Origin: Streptacidiphilus rugosus AM-16
Lineage (GTDB): Bacteria > Actinomycetota > Actinomycetes > Streptomycetales > Streptomycetaceae
Direction: 5' to 3'
DNA: 64,000 nt
NCBI RefSeq assembly: GCF_000744655.1
Contig: NZ_JQMJ01000003.1
Span: 372,001 to 436,000 of the forward strand
The position numbers were made by a program, and so were the translations under genes. The notes below the pieces were generated by a model, which worked only from the letters and a program-made list of their open reading frames with translations, was not told the origin of the DNA and did no database searches. Of this stretch, positions 4,131 to 61,799 are shown in pieces (position 1 is the stretch's first letter; each line of letters opens with the position of its first letter).

Positions 4131-4172
4131 CATGATCGCCAAGTGCTTCACGTGAAGCACTTGGCGATCATG
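4131..4172. repeat. TGCTTCACGTGAAGCA palindrome family, copy E1 (perfect 42 bp)
   Basis: All 42 bases form a perfect palindrome centred on the CACGTG at 4149-4154. The left arm reads CATGATCGCCAAG into the TGCTTCAC core. It lies between convergent genes, ending 1 nt before the stop codon of the Lrp gene, so it could act as a bidirectional terminator. The 16-bp core differs from parS (TGTTTCACGTGAAACA) by one symmetric pair. Confidence 0.9.
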
Positions 4173-39723: not shown

Positions 39724-39786
39724 GCGAACTGCCGCGGACAAGCGTACCCGCTCGACACGGCAGCGCAGACCACCTTTACGCACCAA

Positions 39787-39822
39787 GATCGCTAAATGTC
39801 ACACGTGAAGCATTTGGCGATC
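39787..39822. repeat. TGCTTCACGTGAAGCA palindrome family, copy E2 (degenerate)
   Basis: The sequence keeps the outer GATCGC arm and the central CACGTG, but the left core reads TGTCACAC. 32 of the 36 bases pair if G-T is allowed. It lies upstream of tRNA-Ala and downstream of the DLW-39 gene. A decayed copy. Confidence 0.65.
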
Positions 39823-39890
39823 ATGCTCGACGCGATCACGCTCGGCGTGACCGTGCTCCGAGCGATCCTGCTCGGTGCGCGTCGCTCGGC

Positions 39891-56875: not shown

Positions 56876-56917
56876 CATGATCGGCAAATGCTTCACGTGA
56901 AGCACTTTGCGATCATG
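56876..56917. repeat. TGCTTCACGTGAAGCA palindrome family, copy E3
   Basis: An imperfect 42-bp palindrome centred at 56896.5. The left arm CATGATCGGCAAA and right arm CTTTGCGATCATG pair with three mismatched positions. First of a pair; the second centre is exactly 51 bp downstream. It lies between rsmG and parA. Confidence 0.88.
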
Positions 56918-56926
56918 GAGCCCGAT

Positions 56927-56968
56927 CAAGATCCATAACTGTTTCACGTGAAGCATTTAGTGATCTTG
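56927..56968. repeat. TGCTTCACGTGAAGCA palindrome family, copy E4 (half parS)
   Basis: Centred at 56947.5. The core is TGTTTCACGTGAAGCA: the left half equals canonical parS, the right half the variant. The outer arms CAAGATC and GATCTTG pair perfectly. Confidence 0.85.
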
Positions 56969-57232
56969 GTCGCGCTCCAATGGGTTGGGAGTGACGGAGT
57001 GTCGAACCGTCAGATTTGACGTAAAACGGGCATCGTGTTGCTCGTGAAACGTCGCTCCCTGCTCTCCGGCATCCTCAGCCGAAGCCGCGAGGCCGCCAAC
57101 CGCACCCGTCCTGCCCGTCCTTCGAGTGAAGATCTCGCACCCAGGGGGCCGGAACGTCCCCAACTTCCCCCCAGGCCCCGTGAGCTGCGCGATGATTCTC
57201 ACGACAGCCCGGAGCGCGAGGGGGGCGGACCC

Positions 57233-58369
57233 ATGTCTGCACAGCACCTGTCAGCACAGCAGCACCTGTCGACGCAGCATCCTGCCGCCGTGGAACCAGT
57301 GCCGGGCCCCAGGACGCAATCTCCGTTCGACGACCCTGATCGCAGTGTCCATCCGGCACCGTCGCATGAAACACTGACGGACATGCAGGACTCCGACACT
57401 CCGCCGCTCGCGGACGACACTCCCATCGCGCGCGCCGCGCAGGCCGCTGTCTCCGCGATGACGCGGGTCGGCGAGCCGCTGCCGCGCCCCGCCCAGACCA
57501 GGGTGATGGTGGTCGCCAACCAGAAGGGCGGGGTGGGCAAGACCACGACCACGGTCAATCTGGCCGCGTCGCTGGCTCTGCACGGCGCGCGGGTCCTGGT
57601 CATCGACCTCGACCCGCAGGGCAACGCCTCCACCGCGTTGGGCATCGACCACCACGCCGAGGTGCCCTCGATCTACGACGTCCTGGTGGAGGGAAAGCCG
57701 CTCGCGGACGTCGTCCAGCCGGTCGTGGACGTCGAGGGGCTCTTCTGCTGCCCGGCGACCATCGATCTGGCCGGCGCGGAAATCGAGCTGGTCTCGCTGG
57801 TGGCCCGGGAGAGCAGGCTGCAGCGGGCCATCGCCGCATACGAGCAGCCGCTCGACTACATCCTGATCGACTGCCCGCCCTCGCTGGGTCTGCTGACGGT
57901 CAACGCGATGGTGGCCGGCCGCGAGGTGCTGATCCCGATCCAGTGCGAGTACTACGCGCTGGAGGGCCTCGGCCAGCTGCTGCGGAACGTGGACCTGGTC
58001 CGAGCCCACCTCAACCCGGATCTGCACGTCTCCACCATCCTGCTCACCATGTACGATGCGCGCACCCGGCTTGCCTCCCAGGTGGCCGACGAGGTGCGTG
58101 GTCACTTCAGCTCCGAGGTGCTGCGGACCAGCATTCCCCGGTCGGTGCGTGTCTCCGAGGCCCCCAGCTACGGGCAGACGGTGCTCACGTACGACCCGGG
58201 TTCCAGCGGTGCGCTCTCCTACCTGGAGGCCGCCAAGGAGATCGCGCTTCGCGGCGCGGAGGCGGATGCCGCAGCCGCCGAGGTGGCCTATGCGGCAGGG
58301 GCGTCCGGGGTCTATCCCCAGCAGCCCCGCATGATCGACCAGCACAGCACGATGGAGGGGAACCGGTGA
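57233..58369 (+). CDS. parA: Chromosome partitioning ATPase ParA
   Basis: With the ATG at 57233, the protein has 378 residues: a low-complexity N-terminal ~90 residues, then the deviant Walker A VVANQKGGVGKTTTTVNLAA, DLDPQGNASTALGI, and IDCPPSLGLLTVNAMVAGRE. GGGGGGCGGACCC precedes the chosen ATG; the frame is open to 57035 with a weaker start. ParA moves and positions ParB-origin complexes during sporulation septation. The upstream region from rsmG holds two palindromes of the parS-like family and no other gene. Confidence 0.95.
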   Translation: MSAQHLSAQQHLSTQHPAAVEPVPGPRTQSPFDDPDRSVHPAPSHETLTDMQDSDTPPLADDTPIARAAQAAVSAMTRVGEPLPRPAQTRVMVVANQKGGVGKTTTTVNLAASLALHGARVLVIDLDPQGNASTALGIDHHAEVPSIYDVLVEGKPLADVVQPVVDVEGLFCCPATIDLAGAEIELVSLVARESRLQRAIAAYEQPLDYILIDCPPSLGLLTVNAMVAGREVLIPIQCEYYALEGLGQLLRNVDLVRAHLNPDLHVSTILLTMYDARTRLASQVADEVRGHFSSEVLRTSIPRSVRVSEAPSYGQTVLTYDPGSSGALSYLEAAKEIALRGAEADAAAAEVAYAAGASGVYPQQPRMIDQHSTMEGNR

Positions 58370-59517
58370 GTGAGCGTCGTAGGGGTCTTGGCCGTGGCCT
58401 GGGAGCACTGATCCCGGCCGCAGCTTCACCGGTCGGTGCCCCGACCGCCCCCGGGACCCCTTCTCCCGCGGCCGCGCCGGTGCTCGGGTCCGAGCGCGGG
58501 ATCGCCGCGGTGAAGATCGCCGGACTGAACGGCGCGGGCTCGTCGGCGTCGGTTCCGGTCAGCACCATGGAGCGCGAGCCGGAGTCGGTCGACACCGTGC
58601 GGCCGGAGGAGGACCCGAGCGGGCTGCGGCCGGTCGAGGGCGCCTGGTTCGCCGAGCTTCCGCTGGAATCGATCACACCCAACCCGCGCCAGCCGCGTGA
58701 GGTGTTCGACCCGGAGGCGCTCAACGAGCTCGTCATCTCCATCAAGGAGGTGGGCCTGCTCCAGCCGATCGTGGTGCGCCAGGTCGGCTCCGAGCGCTAC
58801 GAGCTGATCATGGGCGAGCGCCGTTGGCGCGCGAGCCGTGAGGCCGGCCTGGACGTCATCCCGGCCATCGTCCGCTCCACGGACGACGAGAAGCTGCTCC
58901 TGGACGCGCTGCTGGAGAACCTGCACCGCGCCCAGCTCAACCCGCTGGAAGAGGCGGCCGCCTACGAGCAGCTGATGTTCGACTTCTCCTGCTCGCAGGG
59001 TGAGCTCGCGGACCGCATCGGCCGCTCCCGCGCCCACGTGAACAACACGCTTCGGCTGCTGAAGCTGTCGCCGTTCATCCAGCGCCGGGTCGCGGCCGGG
59101 GAGTTCGCCGGGGGTCACGCCCGCGTGCTGCTGACGGTCGAGGACGAGGAGCTGCGGGAGAAGCTCGCGGCGCGCATCTCGCCGGAGGGCCTCTCGGTCC
59201 GTGGCCTGGAGGAGATCGTCGCGGTCATCGGCTTCGACGAGAACCCCGCCTCCCGCAAGCCTCCGGCGGCCCCGCGGGCCGGGCGTCGGATCTCCCCGGC
59301 CTTCGCCAGCCTGGCCAACCGGCTCTCGGACCGCTTCGACACCCGGGTGAAGGTCGAGCTCGGCAAGAACCGAGGCAAGATCGTGGTGGAGTTCGCCTCG
59401 GTCGACGACCTCGACCGCATCCTCGGCTCCTTCGCCCCGGGCGAGGGAGCGATGCTCCGCCAGGGGCTGGAGGGCGATGGCGGCCACGCCGAGGCCATCG
59501 AGGAAGACCAGGACTGA
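58366..59517 (+). CDS. parB: Chromosome partitioning protein ParB (CTPase, parS-binding)
   Basis: The 383-residue protein begins VSERRRGLGRGLGALIPAAA, the ParA-interacting motif. The CTP-binding region contains NPRQPREVFDPEALNEL and MGERRWRASREAGL. LADRIGRSRAHVNNTLRLLK is the HTH that reads parS, and the C-terminal dimer domain ends the protein. Its GTG overlaps the parA stop (GTGA). The window has one canonical parS core and seven variants it might bind. Confidence 0.96.
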   Translation: MSERRRGLGRGLGALIPAAASPVGAPTAPGTPSPAAAPVLGSERGIAAVKIAGLNGAGSSASVPVSTMEREPESVDTVRPEEDPSGLRPVEGAWFAELPLESITPNPRQPREVFDPEALNELVISIKEVGLLQPIVVRQVGSERYELIMGERRWRASREAGLDVIPAIVRSTDDEKLLLDALLENLHRAQLNPLEEAAAYEQLMFDFSCSQGELADRIGRSRAHVNNTLRLLKLSPFIQRRVAAGEFAGGHARVLLTVEDEELREKLAARISPEGLSVRGLEEIVAVIGFDENPASRKPPAAPRAGRRISPAFASLANRLSDRFDTRVKVELGKNRGKIVVEFASVDDLDRILGSFAPGEGAMLRQGLEGDGGHAEAIEEDQD

Positions 59518-59539
59518 CCTGCACTCAGCTCCCCCGAGG

Positions 59540-59587
59540 GACCAAGATCACGAAATGCTTCACGTGAAGCACTTTGAGATCTTGGTC
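59540..59587. repeat. TGCTTCACGTGAAGCA palindrome family, copy E5
   Basis: An imperfect 48-bp palindrome centred at 59563.5, just after parB. The outer arms GACCAAGATC and GATCTTGGTC are perfect. Its left arm from CCAAGATCACGAAATGCTTC is the same as that of copy E7. Confidence 0.88.
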
Positions 59588-59668
59588 CCTTCGTCTTGAG
59601 CGGGCTTGGAGCGTGAGGGCTTCTGCATGCGAGCGGGCGTGGCTAGGCTGCGCCCCGAGGAGGCAGCC

Positions 59669-59917
59669 ATGGAGAGGCAGCACCGGAGTACGGAACGCAC
59701 GTCACAGGTCGCGCTGATCGCCCTGGGGTTGGGCGTCGGCGGTGCGGCCGGATTCCTCGGCGGACTGGTGCGTGATCGCGCTGCCGTCTCGGGCCGGGTG
59801 CGCCTATCGTGGATGCATGGGACGCAGGCTGGTACCGCTCACTCTCGACTCGCTCGCCGATCTCCCACTGCCCTGTCGGTCCTGTGTCTTCTGGGAGCTG
59901 GATCCGGTCAGTGGTGA
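59669..59917 (+). CDS. Possible small membrane protein overlapping the GNAT gene
   Basis: The 82-residue frame starts MERQHRSTERTSQVALIALG, and residues 14-34 (ALIALGLGVGGAAGFLGGLV) look like one membrane helix. GAGGAGG lies 5 nt before the ATG, and TAGGCT at 59644-59649 could be a -10. Its last ~100 nt overlap the GNAT coding region in another frame, so the C-terminal half is probably not under selection. It could be a real short gene or an extension of a shorter ancestor. Confidence 0.35.
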   Translation: MERQHRSTERTSQVALIALGLGVGGAAGFLGGLVRDRAAVSGRVRLSWMHGTQAGTAHSRLARRSPTALSVLCLLGAGSGQW

Positions 59918-60434
59918 GGCTGCCGTCAAGGACGGCCAGGCCGAGCTGGAGAAGGAATCCTGGATCTCCGCCGTGCTGCTGGAGTGGGGTTCCTGCGGAC
60001 GGATCGCCTATGTCGACGACGTCCCGGCGGGCTTCGTGCTCTATGCACCCCCCGCCTATGTGCCGCGATCGCTCGCCTTTCCGACGAGCCCGATCGCGCC
60101 GGACGCCGTGCAGCTGATGACGGCTCGGGTACTGCCGGGCTATCAGGGGCAGGGCATCGGGCGGACCTTGGTGCAGACAGTCGCCAAGGATCTGGTGCGG
60201 CGCGGCTTCAAGGCGATCGAGGCCTTCGGTGACTCCCGCTGGGAGGAACCCAGCTGTGTACTGCCGACGGATCACCTGCTGGCGGTCGGCTTCAAGACGG
60301 TGCGACCGCATCCCCGCCATCCGCGCCTGCGGTTGGAGGTGCGCTCGGCGATCTCCTGGAAGGGCGAGATGGAGGTGGCCCTGGAGCGGCTCCTCGGGGC
60401 GGTCCAGAAGGAGCCCTCGCTCCGGCCGCTCTGA
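59817..60434 (+). CDS. GNAT N-acetyltransferase beside parB
   Basis: The 205-residue protein starts MGRRLVPLTLDSLADLPLPC, followed by CVFWELDPVSGEA and a GNAT domain with ARVLPGYQGQGIGRTLVQTV (acetyl-CoA site). TATCGT ends 6 nt before the ATG at 59817 with no ribosome-binding site, so it is probably leaderless. A GNAT-like gene lies next to parB in other actinobacteria too. The substrate is unknown. Confidence 0.85.
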   Translation: MGRRLVPLTLDSLADLPLPCRSCVFWELDPVSGEAAVKDGQAELEKESWISAVLLEWGSCGRIAYVDDVPAGFVLYAPPAYVPRSLAFPTSPIAPDAVQLMTARVLPGYQGQGIGRTLVQTVAKDLVRRGFKAIEAFGDSRWEEPSCVLPTDHLLAVGFKTVRPHPRHPRLRLEVRSAISWKGEMEVALERLLGAVQKEPSLRPL

Positions 60435-60477
60435 GCCGTCCCGTGCTCGTCCACGGATGCCGGTGCCCTCTGCCGCT

Positions 60478-60519
60478 CAAGATCTTCAACTGCTTCACGT
60501 GAAGCACTTTGCGATCATG
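60478..60519. repeat. TGCTTCACGTGAAGCA palindrome family, copy E6 (hybrid arms)
   Basis: Centred at 60498.5. The left arm CAAGATCTTCAAC is of one type and the right arm CTTTGCGATCATG of the other, so the arms pair poorly within the copy. The left arm instead pairs perfectly with the right arm of copy E7 (29 bp, 60478-60506 with 60542-60570). Confidence 0.85.
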
Positions 60520-60527
60520 AAAGCAGT

Positions 60528-60571
60528 CCAAGATCACGAAATGCTTCACGTGAAGCAGTTGAAGATCTTGG
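60528..60571. repeat. TGCTTCACGTGAAGCA palindrome family, copy E7
   Basis: Centred at 60549.5, exactly 51 bp from E6. The outer arms CCAAGATC and GATCTTGG are perfect and the inner arms mismatched. It ends at the base before the CwlM-like stop codon, between convergent genes. Confidence 0.88.
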
Positions 60572-61759: not shown

Positions 61760-61799
61760 CCGCAGCCCCCATGTTTCACGTGAAACATGGGGGCTGCGG
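61760..61799. repeat. parS: Canonical parS core in a 40-bp perfect palindrome
   Basis: ATGTTTCACGTGAAACAT (61771-61788) contains the consensus parS TGTTTCACGTGAAACA. The flanks CCGCAGCCCCC and GGGGGCTGCGG extend the palindrome to a perfect 40 bp. It can also form a terminator-like stem after trxA. Confidence 0.93.

Follow-up and report, generated by a model that had tools for sequence, protein, structure and literature searches.

The 64,000-nucleotide stretch analysed here (the window) is taken from Streptacidiphilus rugosus AM-16 (contig NZ_JQMJ01000003.1, positions 372,001 to 436,000; contig C3 below), and our subject is a set of 42-bp palindromic elements with parS-like cores that it contains. 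The region corresponds to the actinomycete oriC island; dnaN and dnaA were assigned from open reading frames, and the rsmG (GidB), parA, parB, GNAT and amidase genes were checked against Pfam. The start of parA (57287..58369, plus strand) is tentative, with a Pfam match to AAA_31/CbiA/ParA over 57287-58366 and a frame that is open from 57035. The product of parB (58366..59517, plus strand), presumed reader of the inner core of the elements, has the ParB_N, HTH_ParB and ParB_C domains, and a cognate chromosomal ParB is thus present, as chromosomal ParABS requires. Its DNA-binding domain is changed in the genomes that carry the element (the carriers).

Element E3 (56876..56917), in the gap between rsmG and parA, is the first member of a pair completed by E4 (56927..56968). 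E5 (59543..59584) lies directly 3' of parB, and a second pair, E6 (60478..60519) and E7 (60529..60570), stands between the convergent GNAT and amidase genes with 51 bp from one member to the other. Further 42-bp elements are found at 4131..4172, a perfect palindrome with ATGATC arms, and at 39784..39825, with the hybrid core TGTCACAC/GTGAAGCA. Two other sites have no arms. E8 (61761..61798) is a canonical parS that lacks CAWGATC arms and sits in the middle of a GC-rich perfect hairpin between the amidase gene and trxA, and a parS remnant, GTTGCTCGTGAAAC, lies at the parA start (57037..57050, plus strand).

Motif and census of the element

Each palindrome consists of a parS core inside a 42-bp element of the form CAWGATC-N6-TG-NNN-CAC plus its mirror image. 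Across 59 elements from seven species, the half-site consensus is CAWGATC-R-Y-Y-A-A-N-TG-(variable triplet)-CAC. A scan of 416 kb of the window genome, in which at least 18 of 24 fixed positions had to match, found 18 elements, and none in the reversed sequence; the palindromes are far beyond chance, and allowing two to three mismatches added few further sites. All 18 lie on the oriC contig C3 between 291.9 and 629.5 kb, with parB at 430.4-431.5 kb, and they cluster near oriC and parAB as chromosomal parS sites do. The whole genome (9.0 Mb) contains 14 exact canonical cores (GYTTCACGTGAARC), likewise all on contig C3. Thirteen of these carry CAWGATC arms and the fourteenth is E8; the 18 elements comprise these 13 and five with altered cores.

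When the whole genome was searched for exact matches to the arms by themselves (N28 between them), 18 of 18 matches lay around parS-like cores and there were no others. The geometry is rigid: 88 half-cores inside elements have CAWGATC starting 21 bp out from the centre; 25 further half-core matches represent the same elements in a shifted register, and 16 other matches, outside elements, are scattered over 32-45 bp. The 22 exact matches to an isolated half-element all fall within the 18 elements, and of 20 rows with one mismatch, 11 fall in elements and nine elsewhere. An initial search for arms as GATC-N24..34-GATC was far too loose (3828 matches). One element (G000:C3:473110-473151) has intact arms and a broken centre (TGTCAGCT/GTGAAGCA), and is perhaps decaying.

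Distribution of the element

With up to two mismatches allowed, the element was found in seven of 394 genomes of the family, all in the genus of the window. The carriers, which make up half of the 14 Streptacidiphilus genomes compared, are the window genome, S. fuscans, S. anmyonensis, S. jiangxiensis, S. melanogenes, S. neutrinimicus and S. pinicola. A sample of the class gave one match in 394 genomes, the window genome itself. ParA and ParB trees group the carriers (support 0.93 and 1.0, respectively), with S. fuscans branching first. As a control, 327 canonical parS from 74 Streptomyces and Actinacidiphila loci were compared; GATC stands at -18..-15 in none of their 654 half-sites, and their flanks carry little information outside -8. 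The non-carrier G062 has one match to CAWGATC-N28-GATCWTG, with no parS-like core inside, which was taken as chance.

Paired elements

The original prediction had drawn attention to the spacing of the two pairs, and its description of them is accurate. The centres of E3 and E4 (56896.5 and 56947.5) and those of E6 and E7 (60498.5 and 60549.5) are 51 bp apart, the first members have the same right arm (GTGAAGCACTTTGCGATCATG), both second members start with CAAGATC, and the 9-nt spacers are unlike (GAGCCCGAT vs AAAGCAGTC). The second pair does not look like a recent copy of the first: E4 and E7 are identical at 33 of 42 positions against a mean of 34.1. The pair units of about 93 bp match at 74 of 93 positions, with flanks that are 30-32% identical. 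The four paired elements match at 71 of 84 positions, an agreement reached in 1035 of 5000 random draws of four elements from the same genome (mean 68.0). In all three element pairs, the third being that of S. fuscans, the side of the first member that is turned towards its partner reads GATCATG and the second starts with CAAGATC (56917, 60519 and S. fuscans G074:C23:390161); the GATCATG-type T form of CAWGATC is the rarer form (15 of 118 half-sites).

From this spacing it had been suggested that a pair is a selected functional unit with two dyads, on which two protein dimers, taken here as ParB, could sit on one face of the DNA. Such a unit is favoured by the presence of two exact 51-bp pairs that are not one duplication, and by an orthologous parA-upstream pair in S. 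fuscans, whose members are 52 bp apart and separated by 10 nt of another sequence; this part of the suggestion holds in so far as the parA-upstream pair is old. However, most elements are single. No other element pairs stand close together in the window genome, a pair is absent from both places in five of the six other carriers, which hold one element upstream of parA, and the GNAT-amidase gap holds one element in each of the six, which makes E6/E7 probably a local gain in the window genome. Since five carriers have single elements at both places, and S. fuscans a single one at the second, a two-dyad unit is not needed.

Nor did a 51-bp rule emerge from the comparison across the family. Exact-core pairs 35-65 bp apart, the range searched, occur in 160 of 297 family genomes. 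Spacings were sampled from 75 listed pairs in 46 of these 160 genomes and vary widely: among the pairs listed there are 24 spacings, from 35 to 63 bp, of which 45 bp is the commonest (12 rows). Outside the window genome, 51 bp occurs once among the pairs listed, in a row that spans a third site, as do five of the 75 rows in total. The listed pairs have a weak helical phase (R 0.26 at 10.5 bp, mean phase 3.6 bp), for which the p of 0.006 is not reliable because the listed rows are related, and 51 bp, with a phase of 9.0 bp, is about half a turn off this mean. Placement on the same face at 51 bp is therefore not supported as a general rule, and a preference for about 51-52 bp within the carrier clade would be drawn from three pairs, of which two are orthologous. 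As the window genome has no more than these two close pairs, their equal spacing counts for much less than the palindromes themselves. We consider a selected two-dyad unit unlikely, and the equal spacing appears to be a minor detail of pairs that, judged by their sequence, are two parS-type elements side by side. Three canonical parS within about 70 bp were also seen in some other family genomes (G016, G017, G028, G005 and G140).

Relation to canonical parS sites

Because direct alignment across most parS sites of the non-carrier G030 failed, the places of the elements were projected onto this genome from flanking matches. At five places (seven elements), a canonical parS lies in G030 7-128 bp from the projected place, so that the elements share these places with the chromosomal parS of a relative; a canonical parS stands at the projected place of E4. 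E5 is present in S. fuscans, and a counterpart was not seen at the matching place in the searched regions of S. melanogenes and S. anmyonensis. These shared places bear on a possible origin of the outer arms as a mobile palindromic repeat, of the repetitive extragenic palindrome or miniature inverted-repeat transposable element kind, copied along with parS. Many alike copies with near-identical arms in one genome would fit a repeat of this sort, but the copies are confined to the origin region, 18 of 18 have a parS-like core, the pairs share no flanks beyond the element, and a search of viral contigs gave no match. Together with the places held in common with canonical parS of a non-carrier, this makes a mobile origin highly improbable.

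Sites without arms have fared differently in carriers and non-carriers. The arm-less parS at the parA start, which aligns cleanly, is canonical in G030 as in all seven non-carriers of the genus, and is broken in all seven carriers, which have GTTGCTCGTGAAAC or GGTGCTCGTGAAAC. The same site is canonical in 65 of 74 Streptomyces and Actinacidiphila loci; two have GTTCCAC, and none was found in the remaining seven. The parS within G030 parB is gone from the six carriers that can be aligned there, and in the gap matching that of E8 the six other carriers keep the GC-rich hairpin, with no canonical core found. As the arm-less sites are broken or absent in carriers, cores of this kind have mostly been lost there, E8 of the window genome being the exception.

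The hairpin around E8 is truly GC-rich, and several elements lie in convergent gaps, which could suggest that the palindromes are bidirectional terminators or RNA hairpins that happen to hold parS. Pooled over species, the spacer arms agree 241 times in 354, compared with 203 for shuffled arms (z 5.7). This signal is, however, weak in the window genome alone (z 2.2) and weaker in S. fuscans (z 1.3), the inner triplet has no arm-to-arm agreement (z 0.1), and the CAWGATC sequence itself is conserved beyond mere pairing. Elements are also found in tandem and divergent gaps, as assigned by a simple open reading frame heuristic. Unlike an intrinsic terminator, which lies at a 3' end outside coding sequence, some stand inside frames with Pfam domains. 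One such element lies between two Pfam domains of a BTAD-type regulator gene, in the BTAD-AAA linker, in the window genome (L154:14168-14209; G000:C3:550168) and in similar genes of S. jiangxiensis and S. anmyonensis, and another is near the 3' end of an extracytoplasmic function sigma-factor reading frame. In a MoeA-like frame the element precedes the first domain, and the true start could therefore lie after the element. We regard termination as a very unlikely explanation of the elements. In four Streptomyces loci (L025 7831, L040 7247, L062 7154 and L092 7111) a parS is centred in a long GC-rich palindrome 3' of parB; these palindromes are perfect or near-perfect and may double as bidirectional terminators.

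Changes in the core and in ParB

Among carriers, the outer box and its distance are near-invariant and the inner core, by which chromosomal parS is recognised, drifts. The inner triplet (-6..-4) is CTT or TTT in most half-sites of the window genome and TCA in 22 of 22 half-sites of S. fuscans; the remaining carriers have mixed triplets, with hybrid elements. Exact canonical cores number 14 in the window genome, one in each of four other carriers, and none in S. fuscans and S. jiangxiensis, whereas each of the seven non-carriers has 7-13. In place of the canonical core, S. fuscans has TGTCACRCGYGTGACA in 11 copies, every one of them inside an element.

The closest named relatives of the window ParB are from Streptacidiphilus species (S. 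fuscans, 81%). Conserved positions were defined as those that are the same in at least 90% of 79 non-carrier ParBs, with loci L047 and L072 left out of 88. By this measure, 18 of 222 conserved ParB positions are changed in all seven carriers, as are 5 of 233 positions in ParA. Fourteen of the 18 ParB changes fall within residues 201-283, the DNA-binding domain (14/65, Fisher 1.2e-5, with domain limits that were set after the list had been seen). Measured against the 72 outgroup ParBs alone, 26 of 242 positions are changed in carriers and 11 of 242 in genus non-carriers, of which 15 and 2, respectively, are in the DNA-binding domain. Among the changed positions is 211, which corresponds to Q162 of Caulobacter ParB (numbering transferred via the GxSR motif), a DNA contact according to a passage in PMC7383237. 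By the same transfer, R173, N178, G201 and R204 (Caulobacter numbering) are unchanged in the window ParB.

Discussion

We conclude that the elements are very probably a re-specified form of chromosomal parS, in which 42-bp bipartite sites in one Streptacidiphilus clade serve for ParB nucleation and the ParB domain has changed on the same branch. Several of its grounds are plain in the sequences: the bipartite motif with its rigid geometry, its restriction to a clade, and the places shared with canonical parS of relatives; to these are added the loss of sites without arms and the over-representation of carrier-fixed ParB changes in the DNA-binding domain.

The palindromes would thus be nucleation sites (parS) for the chromosome-segregation protein ParB. 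The usual 16-base parS may have grown in the carrier clade into a 42-base double motif, through addition of a second box, CAWGATC (with AA at -11/-10), at a fixed distance on each side of the ParB core. The inner bases would have lost constraint and been replaced in some species, and the DNA-binding domain of ParB would have changed on the same branch as the sites. By analogy with other bacteria, ParB dimers probably recognise the inner 16 bp and are loaded there as sliding clamps, and a protein on the outer boxes may add affinity or specificity. The outer GATC centres are about one helical turn outside the inner half-sites, and both could therefore be read from one face. As reader of the outer box we slightly favour a partner protein over ParB itself, acting through its C-terminal domain or further dimers. 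It is possible, though we put it forward only tentatively, that this is a two-component centromere on a main chromosome, in which a second reader has a site on either side of each ParB core, and that the second reader relaxed the core until it was replaced throughout in S. fuscans. Any ligand at the flanks would stand in the path by which ParB clamps have to leave the core, and could control their loading or release.

A number of points weigh against a re-specified parS. The search patterns fix the outer boxes, and conservation of these boxes is therefore partly built in. For seven elements no canonical parS lies near the place projected onto G030, another four could not be placed in this way, and of eight G030 sites examined, five had no alignment across the site in any or nearly any carrier. 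The window genome still keeps E8, a canonical parS without arms. The assemblies are drafts, with S. fuscans listed at 10% contamination, the elements of related species are not independent, and the late choice of domain limits tempers the Fisher result. No ParB_C insertion or obvious new domain was found in carriers in an alignment of 15 sequences (four carriers, four genus non-carriers and seven outgroups), which leaves reading of the outer box by ParB alone without a visible cause. Comparison of 65 kb around oriC with G030 gave no convincing carrier-only gene, and no partner protein is therefore in sight there. Two short frames near oriC were flagged, of 77 aa (C3:404731-404965) and 83 aa (429126-429378); the latter overlaps the parA region in another frame.

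The elements resemble the chromosomal ParABS/parS system (TGTTTCACGTGAAACA), known for example from Streptomyces, in clustering at oriC with parAB, in the usual ParA and ParB domains, in the CACGTG-centred palindrome and in the places common to canonical sites of relatives. They differ in that the carrier element is 42 bp rather than 16, with an invariant outer CAWGATC and an inner triplet that is variable or replaced. A bipartite centromere with two kinds of box is also found in the parS of plasmid P1 (A-box and B-box, with IHF), where the C-terminal domain of ParB reads the B-box, as described in parts of PMC5016525 and PMC4333373. The carrier element is instead chromosomal, symmetric and rigid, with a box on each side of a palindromic core, and it lacks the P1-type arrangement of asymmetric boxes around an IHF site. 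P1-type B-box-binding loops are likewise not seen, the ParB_C of carriers having no insertion relative to non-carriers.

A shift of DNA specificity through the DNA-binding domain of a ParB-family protein has a parallel in the divergence of ParB and Noc (parS to the Noc-binding site NBS), as outlined in a section of PMC7383237. Noc, however, is a paralogue with sites of its own, whereas in carriers the only close homologue of ParB appears to have changed in step with most of its sites, and the sites differ mainly outside the 16-bp core. The parS of Burkholderiales secondary replicons (Bsr) similarly has core variants of a 16-bp palindrome with matched ParB (passages in PMC5450999), but these belong to separate replicons and have 16-bp sites without outer boxes; the carrier elements are on the main chromosome. 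In its relevant passage, a 2016 review describes chromosomal parS as exclusively A-box palindromes (PMC5016525), and an excerpt of a 2017 paper gives one 16-bp parS as common to chromosomal systems (PMC5450999). The portions of open-licence literature searched contained no account of an extended chromosomal parS or of parS in Streptacidiphilus.

Few regulatory DNA motifs of bacteria are as conserved as chromosomal parS, and in this one genus a full set of centromere sites seems to have changed along with its reader. Intermediates, such as the hybrid cores, are still present in several species, so that the rewriting of an essential DNA-protein specificity with many sites becomes directly testable. 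Centromeres of this type may be overlooked or wrongly assessed by generic parS matrices. Should the arms be read by a second protein, that protein would add a new component to the segregation machinery.

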